Made by a program: the position numbers and the translations under genes
The notes under the pieces: generated by a model
What the model saw: only the letters and a program-made list of their open reading frames with translations
Database searches by the model: none
Told to the model about the DNA's origin: nothing
Shown: one piece after another, positions 29,117 to 35,064 of the stretch
Position numbering within the stretch: position 1 is the stretch's first letter
Layout of the letters: each line of letters opens with the position of its first letter
Source of the DNA: Gordonia zhaorongruii
GTDB taxonomy: Bacteria > Actinomycetota > Actinomycetes > Mycobacteriales > Mycobacteriaceae
Reading direction: 5' to 3'
Length of the DNA: 64,000 bases
Assembly: GCF_007559005.1 (NCBI RefSeq)
Contig: NZ_CP041763.1
Coordinates: forward strand, 2,388,463 to 2,452,462

Positions 29117-30073
29117 ATGAACTCAGCGCCCGCCGTCTCAGCACCCGCCATTCCGTCCGGCGTCACGCCCGTCGGCTCGCAGTTCCTCCCAGTACTCCTC
29201 CCCGGGGTACCCGTGCTGGCACGCGCCGATGCCGCCGTGCACGTGGGATGCGACCCGCACTCAGCCGTGGTGCTGCGCCCGGCGCCCGGGGTCGATGTAC
29301 GCGCGGTGGCCGACGTGCTGCAACGGCTTCGCAGCCCCATCACCTATCGCGCCGTGTCCCGCAAGGTGCGCGCCTCCGGGCTGGACGCGAGAACGTTCCG
29401 GTCCATGCTCGATCGTCTCGTTGCGGCGGGTAAGGCGACGTCCACCCGTCGGTGTGCGCGCATGTGCATCGACGTGCACGGGCACGGCGACGTGGCCGCG
29501 GCCCTCACCGCGTCACTTCGGTCATCCGGTCACGACGTGCGGAACGTGCGAGCCGACCACCACCGGCTCCGTCCACGTCCCGGAACACTGGCAGTGATCG
29601 CCGATCAGCCGATCGCCGATCCGGTCGTCACGGCGTATCTCATGGAGAGTCGACTCCCCCACGTGAGCGCATATCTGCGGGACGGTATCGGGGTCGTCGG
29701 TCCGCTGGTGCTGCCGGGATCATCGAGCTGCTTGCGATGCGTGGACCTGCACCGCACCGATCTCGACCCGCAGTGGCCCGTCCTCGCCGCGCAGCTGAGC
29801 GGAGTCGCGGGGTACGCCTCTCCCGCGGTCCTGCGCGCGACGATCGCCATCGCCCACGCGCAGATCGACGACATCGCTGCCAAACTGCCCGGCCCCACGC
29901 CGATCAGTCCGACCGCAGTCGGGCGAATGTTCGAGTTCCGCGAGTCGCCTGCACGCCTGGACTCGCTGGATATCCCGGTGCACCCGCGCTGTGGATGCTT
30001 GGCGGACGGCTATCAACTCAGCCATAGTTCACCTAGGTCCACTATCCTCGGAGGCGGCGAAAGGACACCATGA
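29117..30073 (+). CDS. Orphan TOMM-type cyclodehydratase-like (E1-like) protein
   Basis: 318 aa, Rv3196-like. The N-terminal half (about 1-125) resembles the leader-binding winged-helix region of TOMM cyclodehydratases. The C-terminal half resembles the YcaO-partner ThiF/E1-like fold with zinc ligands SSCLRCVDLHR (about 204) and HPRCGCL (about 292). No YcaO gene or precursor peptide is adjacent. Its stop overlaps the next start as ATGA, so translation with the ABC1 kinase is coupled. Role unknown. Confidence 0.7.
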   Translation: MNSAPAVSAPAIPSGVTPVGSQFLPVLLPGVPVLARADAAVHVGCDPHSAVVLRPAPGVDVRAVADVLQRLRSPITYRAVSRKVRASGLDARTFRSMLDRLVAAGKATSTRRCARMCIDVHGHGDVAAALTASLRSSGHDVRNVRADHHRLRPRPGTLAVIADQPIADPVVTAYLMESRLPHVSAYLRDGIGVVGPLVLPGSSSCLRCVDLHRTDLDPQWPVLAAQLSGVAGYASPAVLRATIAIAHAQIDDIAAKLPGPTPISPTAVGRMFEFRESPARLDSLDIPVHPRCGCLADGYQLSHSSPRSTILGGGERTP

Positions 30074-31386
30074 GCGAGATCACGAAGGGCCAGGGCCGCC
30101 GAAACGCCAAGCTGGCATCCCTGCCGTTGGGAATGGCCGGGCGTGCCGCTGCCGGATTCGGGAAGCGTATGACCGGCAGGAGCAAGGACGAGGTCAACGC
30201 CGAGCTCATGAACCGAACGGCAGAGCAGCTGTTCGCGGTTCTCGGTGAACTCAAAGGCGGCGCGATGAAGGTCGGGCAGGCCTTGTCGATCATGGAGGCC
30301 GCGATCCCCGAGGAGTTCGGGGAGCCGTTCCGTGAGGCACTGACCAAGCTGCAGGCCGAAGCACCGCCGATGCCGGCGAAAACCGTTCACAAGGTACTCG
30401 ACCAGCAGTTGGGCACCAAGTGGCGCGAACGTTTCCAGCACTTCGAGGATGAGCCGGCCGCATCGGCCAGCATCGGTCAGGTCCACAAGGCGGTCTGGGC
30501 CGACGGCCGACCCGTCGCAGTGAAAGTCCAGTATCCCGGTGCCGACCACGCTCTGAAAGCCGACCTGAAAACGCTGAGCCGCATGTCCGGTCTCATCCAG
30601 AGACTGTCGCCCGGTACCGACGTCAAAGGCATGTTCGAAGAGCTGATCGACCGCACCGAGGACGAGCTCGACTACATCGGCGAAGCCGACAACCAGCGCG
30701 CCTTCGCCAAGGCCTTCGACGACGACCCCGATTTCAAGATCCCCAAGGTCGTCGCCAGCGCTCCCAAGGTCATCGTGTCGGAATGGGTCGAAGGCACCCG
30801 ACTGTCCAAGATCATCGCCGAGGGGACTCAGGAGGAGCGCAACGCCGCCGCCATCAAGATGACGACGTTCGAGATCAGTTCCCCGGCACGGGTCGGCCTC
30901 CTGCACGGTGACCCGCATCCCGGAAACTTCTTCGTCCTCGACGACGGCCGTTTCGGCATCCTCGACTTCGGTGCCATCGGGCGTTACCCGGATGGTCTGC
31001 CACCGATGACCGGCCCCATCTTCGCCCTCGCTCGCGACCAGAAGTACGACGAGCTCCGCGATCTCATGGTGGCGACCGACTTCATCCGCCCCTCACACGC
31101 CGATCGCGTGACCGCGACCGACCTCGCCAACTACCTGCAGCCGTACGTCGATCCGCTGTACACCGACGAGTTCCACTTCACCCGTAAGTGGTTGCAGCGG
31201 GCCGCAGGTCAGGCGACCGACCTCACCGGCGACGTCTACAAGACCTCACGCAACCTGAACGTCCCCCGCGAGTACGTCATGGTCTTCCGCGTCCTCATCG
31301 GATGCGTCGGCATCGCCGCTCAACTGAACGCCGCGGCCCCCTACCGGGCGATCATGGCGGAGTGGGTCCCCGGAATCGCCGAATAG
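30070..31386 (+). CDS. ABC1/AarF-type atypical protein kinase (Rv3197-like)
   Basis: 438 aa. Markers of the UbiB/ABC1 family: KVGQALSIME (KxGQ), AASASIGQVHKAV (Ala-rich loop), VAVKVQYPG with the ATP lysine, LLHGDPHPGNFFV as catalytic loop and LDFGAIG as metal loop. In M. tuberculosis the homologue lies just before whiB7 and has been linked to macrolide tolerance. Here a four-gene cassette on the other strand separates it from whiB7. Confidence 0.88.
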   Translation: MSEITKGQGRRNAKLASLPLGMAGRAAAGFGKRMTGRSKDEVNAELMNRTAEQLFAVLGELKGGAMKVGQALSIMEAAIPEEFGEPFREALTKLQAEAPPMPAKTVHKVLDQQLGTKWRERFQHFEDEPAASASIGQVHKAVWADGRPVAVKVQYPGADHALKADLKTLSRMSGLIQRLSPGTDVKGMFEELIDRTEDELDYIGEADNQRAFAKAFDDDPDFKIPKVVASAPKVIVSEWVEGTRLSKIIAEGTQEERNAAAIKMTTFEISSPARVGLLHGDPHPGNFFVLDDGRFGILDFGAIGRYPDGLPPMTGPIFALARDQKYDELRDLMVATDFIRPSHADRVTATDLANYLQPYVDPLYTDEFHFTRKWLQRAAGQATDLTGDVYKTSRNLNVPREYVMVFRVLIGCVGIAAQLNAAAPYRAIMAEWVPGIAE

Positions 31387-31412: not shown

Positions 31413-32420
31413 CTAACCGCGAGTCCGCTGGTACTCGCGGGCGATCAGTCGCACCCAGCGCCGGTCGGACAGGTCCAGCGGGGTGGCCAGCGAGGCGGTG
31501 TCGTACGCGCTGGGTCCGTCGTCGTGGAATCCCCGATGGAGCCACTGGGCGATCGCTGCTGCACGCGCCTCAGGCCCGCGCGGATCCCCGCCGCCTGACT
31601 CGTCGCTGCTGGAATCACCACCGTCCGAATCGCCACCGGCAGGACCGGGGTCGAACATGCCAGCTCCCGCGTGGAGGTACAGCCCGTCGAGGATCGTCGA
31701 CACCCGATCGTCCGCCCGCAGCACCGTGGTGGCCGACCGGTAGTCACCGTCGTCCAGTTCCGGATGCGCCTGCCGAAGTTCCTGCCACAGCCCGTCGGTG
31801 CGCCGCAGGTCCTGGCGTGCGACGAACCACGACTCGACCATCACCGATGCACAGGCGACGCTGAGCACGATGATCGCCACGGCCCACCATCCGTTGGCCG
31901 GCACGATCTGATCGCGTTCGATCGCGATGATGATGATCACCACGAGGACACCGGCGAGATAGCAGGCGATCGCTCGCCCCAGCGGATGCCAGGCGATGTA
32001 CCGAATCCCCACCACGAGTGAGAACACCCCGGCGAGTACGACGAACAGCGAACCTGCAGCCGTCGAACCGGTGACCGCCATCGCCACCACGACGGCCACT
32101 GCCACCGTCGGGATAGCGACGGTGGCCGAGTGCAGTACGTGCCGCCCCACTCGTGGAGAAGCGGACGCGGCGATCAGCGCAGTCGCCGTCGCGACCACCA
32201 CCCAGCAGCCCACGAAGATCAGCACCGGCGTGTCGCTGCCCGCGGGTCCGAGCACTACAGCGACCGTCGGCGTGCGAACCGCGGCCGCAACCGCGGTGGC
32301 GACCGCGGCGATCGCCACCGATGTGCGCGCGAGCGATGGCGGCCGCACGGTGAGGCGACCGATCCTGGCTCCGACGGCGACCGCGCAGAGCACTGCGATG
32401 ATCCAGGTGGCCCAGGTCAT
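31413..32420 (-). CDS. Polytopic membrane protein of the MAB_1171c-like group
   Basis: 335 aa from ATG at 32420. About seven membrane helices cover residues 1-220 (WIIAVLCAVAVGARIG first; VLVVIIIIAIERD sixth). The cytoplasmic end contains RQAHPELDDGDYRSATTVLRADDRVSTILDGLYLHAG, a Gly/Ser/Asp linker and a helical end with LHRGFHDDGPSAYDTASLATPLDLSDRRW. The build matches the MAB_1171c family 'putative transporters', a name without experimental proof. Its ATG overlaps the stop of the metallopeptidase gene (ATGA), so the two are coupled. Last gene of the cassette. Confidence 0.7.
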   Translation of the reverse strand: MTWATWIIAVLCAVAVGARIGRLTVRPPSLARTSVAIAAVATAVAAAVRTPTVAVVLGPAGSDTPVLIFVGCWVVVATATALIAASASPRVGRHVLHSATVAIPTVAVAVVVAMAVTGSTAAGSLFVVLAGVFSLVVGIRYIAWHPLGRAIACYLAGVLVVIIIIAIERDQIVPANGWWAVAIIVLSVACASVMVESWFVARQDLRRTDGLWQELRQAHPELDDGDYRSATTVLRADDRVSTILDGLYLHAGAGMFDPGPAGGDSDGGDSSSDESGGGDPRGPEARAAAIAQWLHRGFHDDGPSAYDTASLATPLDLSDRRWVRLIAREYQRTRG

Positions 32421-32956
32421 CCGAGAGCCTCGTCGTAGCGGAGCATCGGCCGCCACGAAGTACCGCGATGCAGCCGATCGAGCCGCTGCAGGAGCCGGGC
32501 AGCGAAGGCCTCCGCCTCCCACTCGTGGAGTTCGGAGTCCGCATCGGGAACAACGTCGGACGGGTCGGTCGTCGCGGCGGGTTCCTCCTCGCCCCGGAGC
32601 ATGTAGGCGATCAGGTCGTCATCGGCAGCGGCCGTCGCCTCGGCCGCGGCAGCACCCGGATGATCGAAGACGACGTGGCCGAGTTCATGAGCCAGCGTGC
32701 GGGCTTCGCTCGGCAGAGACGGCGCCAGGACGATCTCGTCATGGTCGGAGTACTCGCGACGCTGCCCCCACACCCCGGGCGCGAGATCGTCGACGATGAC
32801 CGCGATGGGTCGCTGCCGGGTCTCCCCGACCGCCGCCACGATCTCCTCGAGCGACGCGGCATGCTTCTGTGAGGCGACATCGAGGACCGCGTCGACGGCC
32901 GCGTGCACGCGGCGATGGGAGCGCCGCGCCTTAGGCGTGGGATCGGTGGTGCTCAT
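32417..32956 (-). CDS. ImmA/IrrE-type zinc metallopeptidase
   Basis: 179 aa from ATG at 32956. The zinc site LAHELGHVVFDH puts HExxH at 90-94, and EWEAEAFAARLLQRL near 150 supplies the third ligand, as in ImmA/IrrE. There is no HTH domain; the HTH partner is two genes upstream. Such peptidases usually cleave a cognate XRE regulator. Here the EspR-like protein of the same operon is the obvious candidate substrate (inference). It overlaps the membrane protein by 4 nt and lies 4 bp after the secreted-protein gene. Confidence 0.82.
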   Translation of the reverse strand: MSTTDPTPKARRSHRRVHAAVDAVLDVASQKHAASLEEIVAAVGETRQRPIAVIVDDLAPGVWGQRREYSDHDEIVLAPSLPSEARTLAHELGHVVFDHPGAAAAEATAAADDDLIAYMLRGEEEPAATTDPSDVVPDADSELHEWEAEAFAARLLQRLDRLHRGTSWRPMLRYDEALG

Positions 32957-32960
32957 GCCC

Positions 32961-33887
32961 TCACCCCTTGCCCGGAGACAGGAATTCGACTCGGGCCGCA
33001 TTCACCCGGACTCGTCCGGCACGCGCGTTGCGATGGCTTGCGACTCCCGCAGCCGCGGCGACGAGTACCAGTCCGCCGATGCCGCTTCCGGCGGCCGCGA
33101 ACTGACCCGCCGAGGCGGTGGTCGACGCGGGCGACGACGCATCGGCGGCCCGATTCTGAGCTGCACCGGCCTGAGCGGCATCTTTCTGAGCGCCATCTCT
33201 CTGGGCTTCTCCCGGCGGCGGCGCACTCGGGTCTTCCGGGTCGGCGGCCGCAGCGGACGACGTCGATTCAGTGTCGGACCGGTCATCGTCCGCGTGGTCG
33301 GCCGACCGAGTCGTCCGCGCGCCGCGTTTCGTGGGCCGGGCGTGATTCGTTGGCACCGGAGGCTCCGCCGAGCGTGTCAGGCGAGGCTCGCGGACATCGG
33401 GCCGAGGCTCCCGTGACTCGCTCGAGTCGTCGGCCTGTCCCGAATCGTCGGGCTCCATCGAGTCGTCGTAACCGGAATCAGAGTCCCCAGAATCAGAGCC
33501 CTCAGAGTCACCAGAGTCCTCGTCCTCGGACTCCTCAGTCTCCTCAGGCTCCTCAGGTCCTTCCGACGTCTCGGAGGGTGGCGACTCTTCAGGCCCTGCG
33601 CTCTCCTCAGGCCCTGCGCTCTCTTCGGAACCGGTGCTCTTCTCAGAGCTGGTCGACTCATCGGAACCGGGTCCATCGGATTGGGGTCGATCGGATTCAG
33701 GTCCATCGGATTCGGCGGCGGGGCGCTCGGAACTGCGGCTGCACGGCGTCTCGGAGCAGTGATGCTGGGGCGCTGCCGATACCGACGCCGACGCGCCGAC
33801 CAGGATCGTCGGGGCAGCCAGTGCTGCACATGCGGCCGCAGCGACGCTCAGCGGTCGCGCGGCACGCAGCATGTTCCGGTCCGACAT
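32961..33887 (-). CDS. Secreted acidic Ser/Glu-rich protein with C-terminal membrane helix
   Basis: 308 aa. Signal peptide about 1-38 (ending ASVSAA). Residues 50-170 are almost all Ser, Glu, Asp, Gly and Pro in repeats (SAGPEESAGPEES; SDGPESDRPQSDGP). Residues 170-255 are mixed and Arg/Ala-rich. A hydrophobic segment (GGLVLVAAAAGVAS, about 272-286) is followed by RNARAGR. It would span the wall as a stalk or tether. The terminal part after the helix (RVEFLSPGKG) would be cytoplasmic. Nothing similar is recognised; it may be the surface sensor or target of the system. Confidence 0.7.
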   Translation of the reverse strand: MSDRNMLRAARPLSVAAAACAALAAPTILVGASASVSAAPQHHCSETPCSRSSERPAAESDGPESDRPQSDGPGSDESTSSEKSTGSEESAGPEESAGPEESPPSETSEGPEEPEETEESEDEDSGDSEGSDSGDSDSGYDDSMEPDDSGQADDSSESREPRPDVREPRLTRSAEPPVPTNHARPTKRGARTTRSADHADDDRSDTESTSSAAAADPEDPSAPPPGEAQRDGAQKDAAQAGAAQNRAADASSPASTTASAGQFAAAGSGIGGLVLVAAAAGVASHRNARAGRVRVNAARVEFLSPGKG

Positions 33888-33947
33888 CAGATCTCCCCTG
33901 CCTTCAGGTGGGCTCGGGGCACACTACCCAAACTTCGGCGCTGATCC

Positions 33948-34358
33948 TCAATCCGGAGGACTCTCGGGCAGACCTTCGCCCCGGCGGAGCTTCTCGGCCA
34001 TCACGGACAGCATCTCCTGAGACTCCTCGGACAGGTCGAATGCCCTACTGGAGAGGCGCCGGAGGCCGCGGCCCCGTAGTTGGGCCAGCAGTTCGAGGTC
34101 GTGGTCGATCTTCGCCGCATATACGTCGTCGTAGAAGTAGTCGGGTTTGACCTTGAAGAACTGCGCTAGCGCCGACAGCGTCTCGTGAGACGGATTGGTG
34201 CGGTGCCCGTTCCGCAGCTGCGAGATGTACGGCTTCGAGATCTGGTGCCCGGCGGCCGACACCGCCATCGCGACTTCGGCATTGGAGTGTGGTTTTCGAC
34301 CGGGTGGGTGCACTGTGTCGAACAGCCGGTTCAGCCTTTCGGCGAATCTGTTGTCCAT
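33948..34358 (-). CDS. EspR-like XRE-family transcriptional regulator
   Basis: 136 aa from ATG at 34358. The sequence follows M. tuberculosis EspR closely in plan: FAERLNRLFDTVHPPGRKPH at the start, HTH (about 27-58) with KPYISQLRNGHRTNPS, and a C-terminal dimerisation region with YFYDDVYAAKIDHDLELL and GLRRLSSRAFDLS. EspR is a nucleoid-associated regulator of ESX-1 secretion and envelope genes. No ESX gene is in this window, so this paralogue probably controls its own cassette. First gene of the operon; the next starts 60 bp downstream. Confidence 0.82.
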   Translation of the reverse strand: MDNRFAERLNRLFDTVHPPGRKPHSNAEVAMAVSAAGHQISKPYISQLRNGHRTNPSHETLSALAQFFKVKPDYFYDDVYAAKIDHDLELLAQLRGRGLRRLSSRAFDLSEESQEMLSVMAEKLRRGEGLPESPPD

Positions 34359-34466
34359 GAACCCTTTCCTGTCCCGCATCGGATCATCCGAAGTCGATAC
34401 GGGCACATCCCCCGACGATGCCAATCCCACTCTAGCGCGCCTCCCACCTAACTCACTTCGGCATCG

Positions 34467-34494
34467 ATCATAAGTCCGCCGCCCGTAATAGCAA
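34467..34494 (-). promoter_or_regulatory. Predicted promoter of the EspR-like cassette
   Basis: On the minus strand TTGCTA (34494-34489), 16-bp spacer, TATGAT (34472-34467), about 110 bp before the regulator's ATG. A 10-bp palindrome GCTATATAGC lies upstream at 34531-34540 and could be a binding site. Confidence 0.55.
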
Positions 34495-34682
34495 ACTTCC
34501 AGTAACCAACCCACCATCGTGAGAGCACACGCTATATAGCCCCCTTACGTCGGACGATGAGCCGATCAACCAGCGTTCTCTGCCGCAATTTAGTCGCCGC
34601 GAAGTGTTTGCTGTACGGTAACTGGCGTGGTCGTCGCCACGATAAGGGAAGGGCCGATCGGCCGCCCGGGGACCAGATCATC

Positions 34683-34719
34683 GGTGGCGGGTGCTCTTGA
34701 GGGGAGAGCACCCGCCACC
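34683..34719 (+). other. Leader hairpin upstream of the 99-aa gene
   Basis: Perfect 15-bp stem (34683-34697 with 34705-34719), 7-nt loop TGAGGGG, ending 45 bp before the start codon at 34765. No T-run follows on either strand, so it is more likely a leader structure than a simple terminator. Confidence 0.5.
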
Positions 34720-34764
34720 GGCACGAAGCTCACCGCGCAGAGCCACGACGAGCAGGAGAACATC

Positions 34765-35064
34765 TTGGGCACACCGCCAGTGACGTTCGTTTTCGCAGGC
34801 GAGCGCTTCCCGATCAGTCCGGAGACGGGCGACCGCATCATCGAGTTCGTCGCCGCCGCCGAAGCCGATTCCATCGCTGCAGATCACTTCGTCGTCCCCA
34901 CCGTGGACGGCCGCCAGGTGATCGCGAACATCGGTCCGTCGATGCCGTATGCGATCGAGATCGGTATCGAAGACCATTCACCGGAGCCCGGCGAATCGCA
35001 GCCCGACGGGGACCTGGTCCAGACGTTGGCGGCCCGGGATTCCGTCCTCCAACACGATTCCTGA
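34765..35064 (+). CDS. Small acidic protein of unknown function
   Basis: 99 aa if it starts at TTG 34765, chosen because AGGAG sits 6 nt upstream and a stable hairpin lies just before it. A GTG at 34627 would give 145 aa and place that hairpin in coding sequence. Visible segments: VTFVFAGERFPISPETGDRIIEFV and VVPTVDGRQVIANIGPSMPYAIEI. It ends tail-to-tail with whiB7, 2 bp apart. Family not recognised. Confidence 0.6.
   Translation: MGTPPVTFVFAGERFPISPETGDRIIEFVAAAEADSIAADHFVVPTVDGRQVIANIGPSMPYAIEIGIEDHSPEPGESQPDGDLVQTLAARDSVLQHDS

Follow-up and report, generated by a model that had tools for sequence, protein, structure and literature searches.

Introduction

In several described systems, a zinc peptidase controls a transcriptional regulator: ImmR is cleaved by ImmA and DdrO by IrrE, and BlaI is the target of the membrane peptidase BlaR1. 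EspR is a much-studied regulator of Mycobacterium. The available part of PMC3315491 describes EspR as nucleoid-associated and reports that, when its last ten residues are missing, the protein does not dimerize and activation is ablated. A relative of EspR is encoded in the stretch of DNA analysed here, a window of 64,000 nucleotides from the 3.23 Mb genome of Gordonia zhaorongruii (contig NZ_CP041763.1, positions 2,388,463 to 2,452,462), where four minus-strand genes are arranged as one unit (hereafter, the cassette) that specifies the regulator, a stalk protein, a predicted zinc peptidase of the M78 (ImmA/IrrE) type and a membrane protein with seven predicted helices. The closest named relatives of the peptidase belong to Gordonia species.

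The observation made in a first-pass annotation of this DNA is confirmed and extends beyond what was first seen, as the same partners were found beside espR itself in mycobacteria. We regard it as an even chance that the four-gene module is a transmembrane switch, in which the envelope proteins sense and the peptidase cuts or disables the regulator.

An EspR-family regulator and its partners in Gordonia, Rhodococcus and Nocardia

Residues 2–130 of the window regulator, annotated earlier as EspR-like, match mycobacterial EspR crystal sequences over 129 of the 135 chain residues (E 2.8e-38); the crystallised protein is, we presume, that of the tuberculosis bacterium. The match is full-length, encompassing both the helix–turn–helix (HTH) and the C-terminal dimerization part, and HTH_3 scored above the Pfam cut-off. 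The regulator is 77–85 % identical to four aligned cassette regulators from Gordonia, Rhodococcus and Nocardia, compared with an identity falling to 33 % in Nocardia for the membrane protein.

In a sample of 61 genomes, the regulator (at more than 80 % identity), the peptidase and the membrane protein gave strong matches in the same five, all of them within the 37 genomes of the same genus, and weak matches (E 1e-4 to 7e-4) were obtained for the peptidase in three further genomes and for the membrane protein in one. Among 15 named loci, at least two of which overlap this sample (L048 and L051 are genomes G030 and G020), four from Gordonia and one from Rhodococcus show the order regulator–stalk–peptidase–membrane protein. 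The remaining ten are from Nocardia; the regulator is located beyond the membrane gene on the other strand in all nine that extend far enough, and the stalk is present in all seven that could be examined, the other three having less than 350 bp upstream. The four families therefore occur together in two layouts, at different places, in these genera. The first-pass annotation had set beforehand, as grounds for abandoning the unit, a failure of the families to co-occur elsewhere, and they were found together in several genera. Its question of whether gene order is kept receives a divided answer, positive in the Gordonia and Rhodococcus loci and negative in Nocardia. The possibility that the cassette genes are chance neighbours in this genome is refuted by the co-occurrence counts across genera and at the espR loci, and its probability is practically nil.

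Two of the Nocardia loci (L052 and L059) contain the peptidase and membrane genes twice in tandem beside a single regulator; a stalk accompanies the second copy, and the end of a stalk the first. In three Nocardia loci (L053, L057 and L061), the cassette is located within an apparent sterol-degradation gene cluster, the neighbours being what we take to be IpdAB-, EchA20- and CYP125-like genes.

Other Gordonia species possess a second EspR-like regulator of approximately 31 % identity. Two of its loci (L021 and L036) read as regulator–peptidase–membrane protein triads, and a third Gordonia triad (L074) came from the family search. A different stalk, Ser/Thr-rich with a C-terminal helix and an FL[DE][AS]L tail, is encoded divergently beside 16 of the 21 genes for these regulators; this number was counted by eye from the tails, and a scripted hydropathy count also gave 16, with two loci differing. 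One second-regulator triad (L063), with its own divergent stalk gene, is situated near GDT1-like and Rv3847-like genes. Genes presumably of the same names are also found near espR in the Mycobacterium-like loci that were read.

The module beside espR in Mycobacterium-like genomes

Genus labels in this comparison (g23, Mycobacterium-like; g24, Nocardia-like) were assigned from EspR and the neighbouring genes. In the Mycobacterium-like sample of 78 genomes, EspR was detected in 77 (E≤1e-40) and a window-type peptidase in 41 (E≤1e-15), and in 40 of these 41 the peptidase gene is convergent with espR. Of 41 linked pairs, 40 have a gap of 1082–1291 bp between the two genes, and one (G444) has a gap of 2738 bp. 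In the 41st genome (G487), the contig bearing the peptidase ends inside espR (residues 76–133), beside the membrane gene. All 30 peptidase loci examined contain espR, the membrane gene and the peptidase gene together, with the membrane gene in between. On the far side, a match to a gene that we take to be Rv3850 was present in 23 of them and in none of the other seven, four of which end early at the contig end. In genomes that have no peptidase, the Rv3850-like gene comes next after espR, in the same orientation and 74–207 bp away (20/20 loci, from 20 of the 36 such espR-bearing genomes). The module is thus either there or missing as a whole at a single site. In G444 (L184, L258), espR was matched as two fragments separated by approximately 1.5 kb, next to the membrane gene.

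The history of this block was approached with an EspR tree of few columns, comprising 75 rows (40 of the 41 peptidase-bearing and 35 of the 36 peptidase-less genomes) and three outgroup rows. Two changes of state are enough to account for the distribution of the peptidase, and none of 500 shuffles was as low; the peptidase-less rows form one inner branch and one separate case, with weak support (85/50). A smaller EspR tree, whose sample was biased, placed the peptidase-bearing rows inside the others. The balance tips slightly towards ancestral presence followed by loss of the peptidase rather than one gain. The EspR of L211, which falls within the peptidase-less branch, closely resembles the solved protein. 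Between EspR proteins with a peptidase (L134–L163) and those without (L194–L213), five nearly fixed differences were seen, all in the C-terminal half; they were not used as evidence, because the sample was chosen by similarity and lineage confounds the comparison.

Peptidase and stalk

The window peptidase contains HELGH at residues 90–94, and an EWEAE motif at 145–149 would supply the third zinc ligand; HELGH and the two glutamates of the third-ligand motif are invariant in 13 of 13 aligned peptidases. It scores 24.4 bits against the Pfam M78 model (PF06114, cut-off 22), a threshold that its relatives in L063, L073, L116, L246 and L247 do not reach. The predicted structure has an M78 fold similar to IrrE/PprI, with CapP as the best Foldseek match (E 5.8e-4). 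The fold is evident only from the model, as a search of the PDB with the sequence returned nothing meaningful (a single match, E 0.44). These results agree with the earlier description of an ImmA-type HExxH metallopeptidase. The extra C-terminal domain of IrrE is absent: the model stops after the last long helix and a short low-confidence tail, and the protein is 179 residues long versus 240–278 for the best-matched PprI, IrrE and CapP chains.

The stalk, as read from its sequence, has an N-terminal signal peptide, an ectodomain rich in Ser, Glu, Asp and Pro, and a single membrane helix at approximately residues 256–282, followed by a basic, conserved tail, HRNARAGRVRVNAARVEFL. The earlier description of a signal-peptide protein with a C-terminal helix is thus upheld, and the conservation of the tail can be added to it: the helix and short tail are conserved, unlike the ectodomain, whose sequence has low complexity. 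No family was found for the stalk in Pfam or PHROGs, and NCBIfam gave one weak match far below cut-off. Of 45 loci searched with a pattern for the tail, 38 have it upstream of the peptidase gene: all 15 loci of Gordonia, Rhodococcus, Nocardia and genus g51, and 23 of the 30 Mycobacterium-like loci. The pattern matched 62 of 7149 open reading frame ends (from partly overlapping loci), each just upstream of a peptidase motif, a count that tests specificity only, the pattern having been written from the same stalk sequences.

The seven-helix membrane protein and the MAB_1171c/DUF6545 class

The polytopic membrane protein noted earlier was modelled as a seven-transmembrane (7TM) bundle, possibly like that of G-protein-coupled receptors (GPCRs), with a helical tail. 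Its basic loops predict an external N-terminus and a cytosolic C-terminus. Searches of Pfam, NCBIfam, PHROGs and PADLOC yielded no function for this protein or for the stalk, and the membrane protein did not match the NF042915 or PF20182 models at E≤1. A close relative (P0008) scores 25.0 against PF20182 (cut-off 24.4) and 20.2 against NF042915 (cut-off 100). In hhalign comparisons, the window-type membrane protein was matched at 99.7 % to mycobacterial proteins, one of which passes PF20182 (26.9 versus 24.4); the direct comparison with MAB_1171c-type proteins was weaker (71 %, C-terminal part only).

MAB_1171c-family proteins were found in 18 of 101 genomes of the order and in none of 14 controls. 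When 30 loci from the 37 matches were inspected within 1.5 kb, 26 contained an M78 peptidase and 24 an EspR-like regulator as well. A profile of the window-type membrane protein gave 33 matches in 33 of 397 genomes, with both partners in 28 of the 30 loci examined; the window's own copy is among the two misses, because its stalk gene pushes the regulator beyond the 1.5-kb flank. Combinations of an EspR-like regulator, an M78 peptidase and a membrane protein of the DUF6545/MAB_1171c kind, which make up the wider class, are found repeatedly across the order.

The available text of PMC8707978 reports that a MAB_1171c mutant forms approximately half the biofilm and has lower minimum inhibitory concentrations for some drugs, and the reduction in biofilm is in line with a role in the envelope. 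That phenotype, together with the NCBI name of the relatives, 'MAB_1171c family putative transporter', might be taken to indicate that the membrane protein is a transporter and the cassette a regulated envelope-export locus with an accessory peptidase. However, no transporter family exceeded its cut-off in the Pfam and NCBIfam scans, the model is receptor-like with seven helices and a helical tail, and the family name is a putative label. A transporter locus is, in our judgement, decidedly unlikely.

Mobile relatives

Relatives were also detected in 28 plasmid records (27 from Rhodococcus and one from Nocardia), all at less than 60 % identity. On two Rhodococcus plasmids (L246 and L244), peptidase–membrane gene pairs are accompanied by a PAP2-like or unknown gene and by convergent HTH regulators; for one plasmid copy, the adjacent HTH gene has no similarity to the window regulator. 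In the Mycobacterium abscessus phage Adler (L247, 5370–9738), genes for XRE, M78-like, MAB_1171c-family and P450 proteins stand in a row, the M78-like protein being below its Pfam cut-off and the MAB_1171c-family protein above.

Pairs of XRE and M78 proteins are typical of mobile elements, and a defence or mobile-element switch had been offered in the first-pass annotation next to an envelope signal circuit. A toxin–antitoxin, defence or immunity switch of the Xre-ImmA kind would accommodate the copies on Rhodococcus plasmids and in phage Adler, the unusual site of the window copy, and the weak capH and capP scores from PADLOC, a scan that took in the four cassette proteins only. On the other hand, the espR-linked copies of 40 genomes all occupy a single chromosomal site, conservation of the regulator is high (as given above), none of 319 pattern matches in a scan of viral contigs was confirmed as a relative by tblastn, and to our knowledge Xre-ImmA switches do not include two envelope proteins. 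A switch of this kind is therefore the weaker of the two proposals, and we consider it quite improbable for the cassette. The envelope signal circuit is supported, as it fits the co-occurrence of the genes, the retained HELGH, the predicted M78 fold, the 7TM protein and the conserved tail of the stalk.

Gene layout, promoter and chromosomal position

The stop codon of the regulator gene is separated from the stalk start by 60 bp, the stalk stop lies 4 bp from the peptidase start, and the peptidase and membrane genes share 4 nt (ATGA, 32417–32420), so the coordinates bear out the compact layout first described (Table 1). The upstream end of the unit had been placed at 34494, which falls in the promoter region; the coding part is 31413–34358, because the ATG at 34358 is where the alignments with relatives begin.

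Table 1. Genes and regulatory features of the cassette in the window
Feature	Position	Strand	Basis
EspR-family XRE regulator, 136 aa	33948..34358	-	HTH_3 above Pfam cut-off; EspR crystal sequences
Stalk protein, 308 aa	32961..33887	-	Signal peptide, C-terminal helix, conserved tail
Single-domain zinc peptidase of the M78 (ImmA/IrrE) type, 179 aa	32417..32956	-	Predicted
Seven-helix membrane protein, 335 aa	31413..32420	-	Divergent DUF6545/MAB_1171c relative
Cassette promoter region	34359..34626	-	Partly conserved with cassettes elsewhere
Candidate EspR-type site CAGCAAA (reverse of TTTGCTG)	34607..34613	-	TTTGC[TC][GA] match
Candidate EspR-type site TTTGCTA, inverted relative to the CAGCAAA site	34489..34495	-	TTTGC[TC][GA] match

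The accessible part of PMC3315491 gives TTTGC[TC][GA] for EspR sites, and such sites occur at the espR promoter. The window promoter contains two inverted sites of this type in 300 bp versus 0.05 expected. A 19-bp block, CAGTTACCGTACAGCAAAC (34606–34624), which includes one EspR-type site, was found by upstream alignment in four of seven Gordonia cassettes, once with one change; the promoter thus seems to travel with the genes. Autoregulation through these sites is not claimed, because their enrichment is weak across all promoters tested.

The cassette interrupts the Rv3197–whiB7 neighbourhood, as had been recognized: in 16 of the 18 other Gordonia genomes examined, 48–270 bp separate the two genes, compared with 3.7 kb in the window. 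In the other two genomes, as at a second whiB7-like place in one of them, no Rv3197 match was present within the 1.5 kb examined. Between the cassette and whiB7 there is an open frame of 145 aa (34627–35064), which had no match in 20 whiB7 loci from other genomes (18 of them Gordonia) and no Pfam family. The neighbour at 30070–31386 scores 632 bits against the model of the macrolide-binding ATPase MABP-1 (cut-off 800).

How the switch may work

In the proposed transmembrane switch, a change outside the membrane would be sensed by the stalk and the 7TM protein, which would hold or release the peptidase; the peptidase would then cut or disable the EspR-like regulator. With its oligomers lost, the regulator would no longer repress its own operon, and the expression of envelope genes would shift. 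The signal would most likely pass through the co-translated 7TM protein and the tail of the stalk, because the peptidase does not have the extra domain of IrrE and CapP. Its most likely substrate, by analogy with ImmA–ImmR, IrrE–DdrO and BlaR1–BlaI, would be the EspR-like regulator. We conjecture that the cut is made at the C-terminus of the regulator, where a small one would suffice, since EspR without its last ten residues neither dimerizes nor supports activation in the available account (PMC3315491).

Alternatively, the peptidase might act on the cytosolic tail of the stalk (or mature the membrane protein), with the regulator simply repressing the operon. Conservation of the stalk is confined to its membrane helix and tail, and the stalk gene is next to that of the peptidase in either layout of the window family, whereas the regulator gene switches strand. 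However, six of 30 mycobacterial loci retain the peptidase and membrane genes with no recognizable stalk, the regulator and peptidase are paired in 24 of the 30 wider loci, and all characterized M78 partners known to us are XRE regulators. We consider this target unlikely.

Several findings weigh against the transmembrane switch itself. The stalk is apparently dispensable, because those six mycobacterial loci do not contain the tail motif (a further locus was unreadable). The best Foldseek match of the 7TM model has an E value of 0.024 and may reflect a common seven-helix arrangement. As many as 36 of the 77 mycobacterial-type genomes with EspR have no peptidase, and the genome G471 contains an additional, weaker peptidase match at a site far from espR. 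Furthermore, one or both partners are missing from six of the 30 MAB_1171c-family loci, and one window-type triplet (L114) has no regulator within 1.5 kb. Finally, 10 of 13 promoters contain no EspR-type site; the sum over the promoters is 4 versus 1.41 expected, and such sites are clear in the window and two other Gordonia promoters only.

A more far-reaching version, which we put forward tentatively and think rather less probable than the switch in its general form, is that a 7TM protein of GPCR fold and a wall-spanning stalk would gate an ImmA-type peptidase that trims EspR. EspR would then be the output of an envelope sensor, and this sensor would have been lost in the lineage nearest to the tuberculosis EspR, leaving an orphan EspR there.

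The presence of espR and its relatives beside an intact ImmA-type peptidase, a 7TM protein and a stalk in several genera offers a candidate answer to the question of how EspR is controlled, namely proteolysis governed by an envelope sensor. The finding would also point to a function for the DUF6545/MAB_1171c proteins, as 26 of their 30 examined loci include an M78 peptidase nearby. Literature searches combining EspR with ImmA, IrrE, DUF955, protease terms, Rv3850 and related genera revealed no EspR–peptidase link among the matches listed, judged by title and abstract opening and with subscription papers outside their scope, and no paper was found for DUF6545. An apparent 'EspR and metallopeptidase' paper, PMC3890501, was ruled out, as the matching word in its available text was the program name ESPript.

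Comparison with known systems

EspR of Mycobacterium, the nucleoid-associated protein of PMC3315491 (as far as its available text goes), is similar to the window regulator over its full length. EspR has been described as a stand-alone regulator. The window regulator sits beside a peptidase and two envelope proteins, and in 41 of the 78 Mycobacterium-like genomes espR likewise has the peptidase and the membrane protein next to it, usually with a stalk. The membrane protein is homologous by profile to the MAB_1171c/DUF6545 proteins (NF042915, PF20182) through a mycobacterial intermediate and has similar gene neighbours, although it does not itself match either model. The CapH/CapP proteins of CBASS resemble the cassette in that CapP is the best structural match of the peptidase and capH and capP score weakly; however, the solved CapP has 278 residues, and the window unit adds envelope proteins. 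ImmR/ImmA and DdrO/IrrE likewise combine an XRE regulator with an M78 peptidase, and there the regulator is cut, but the cassette differs from them in its EspR-type regulator, its single-domain peptidase and its two added envelope proteins. With BlaR1/BlaI it would share the logic of an outside signal, a membrane protein, a zinc peptidase and a repressor; if the proposed switch is real, the receptor and the regulator-cutting peptidase would here be separate proteins. The cassette would thus most likely resemble BlaR1 or IrrE/DdrO, but with a regulator of the nucleoid type.

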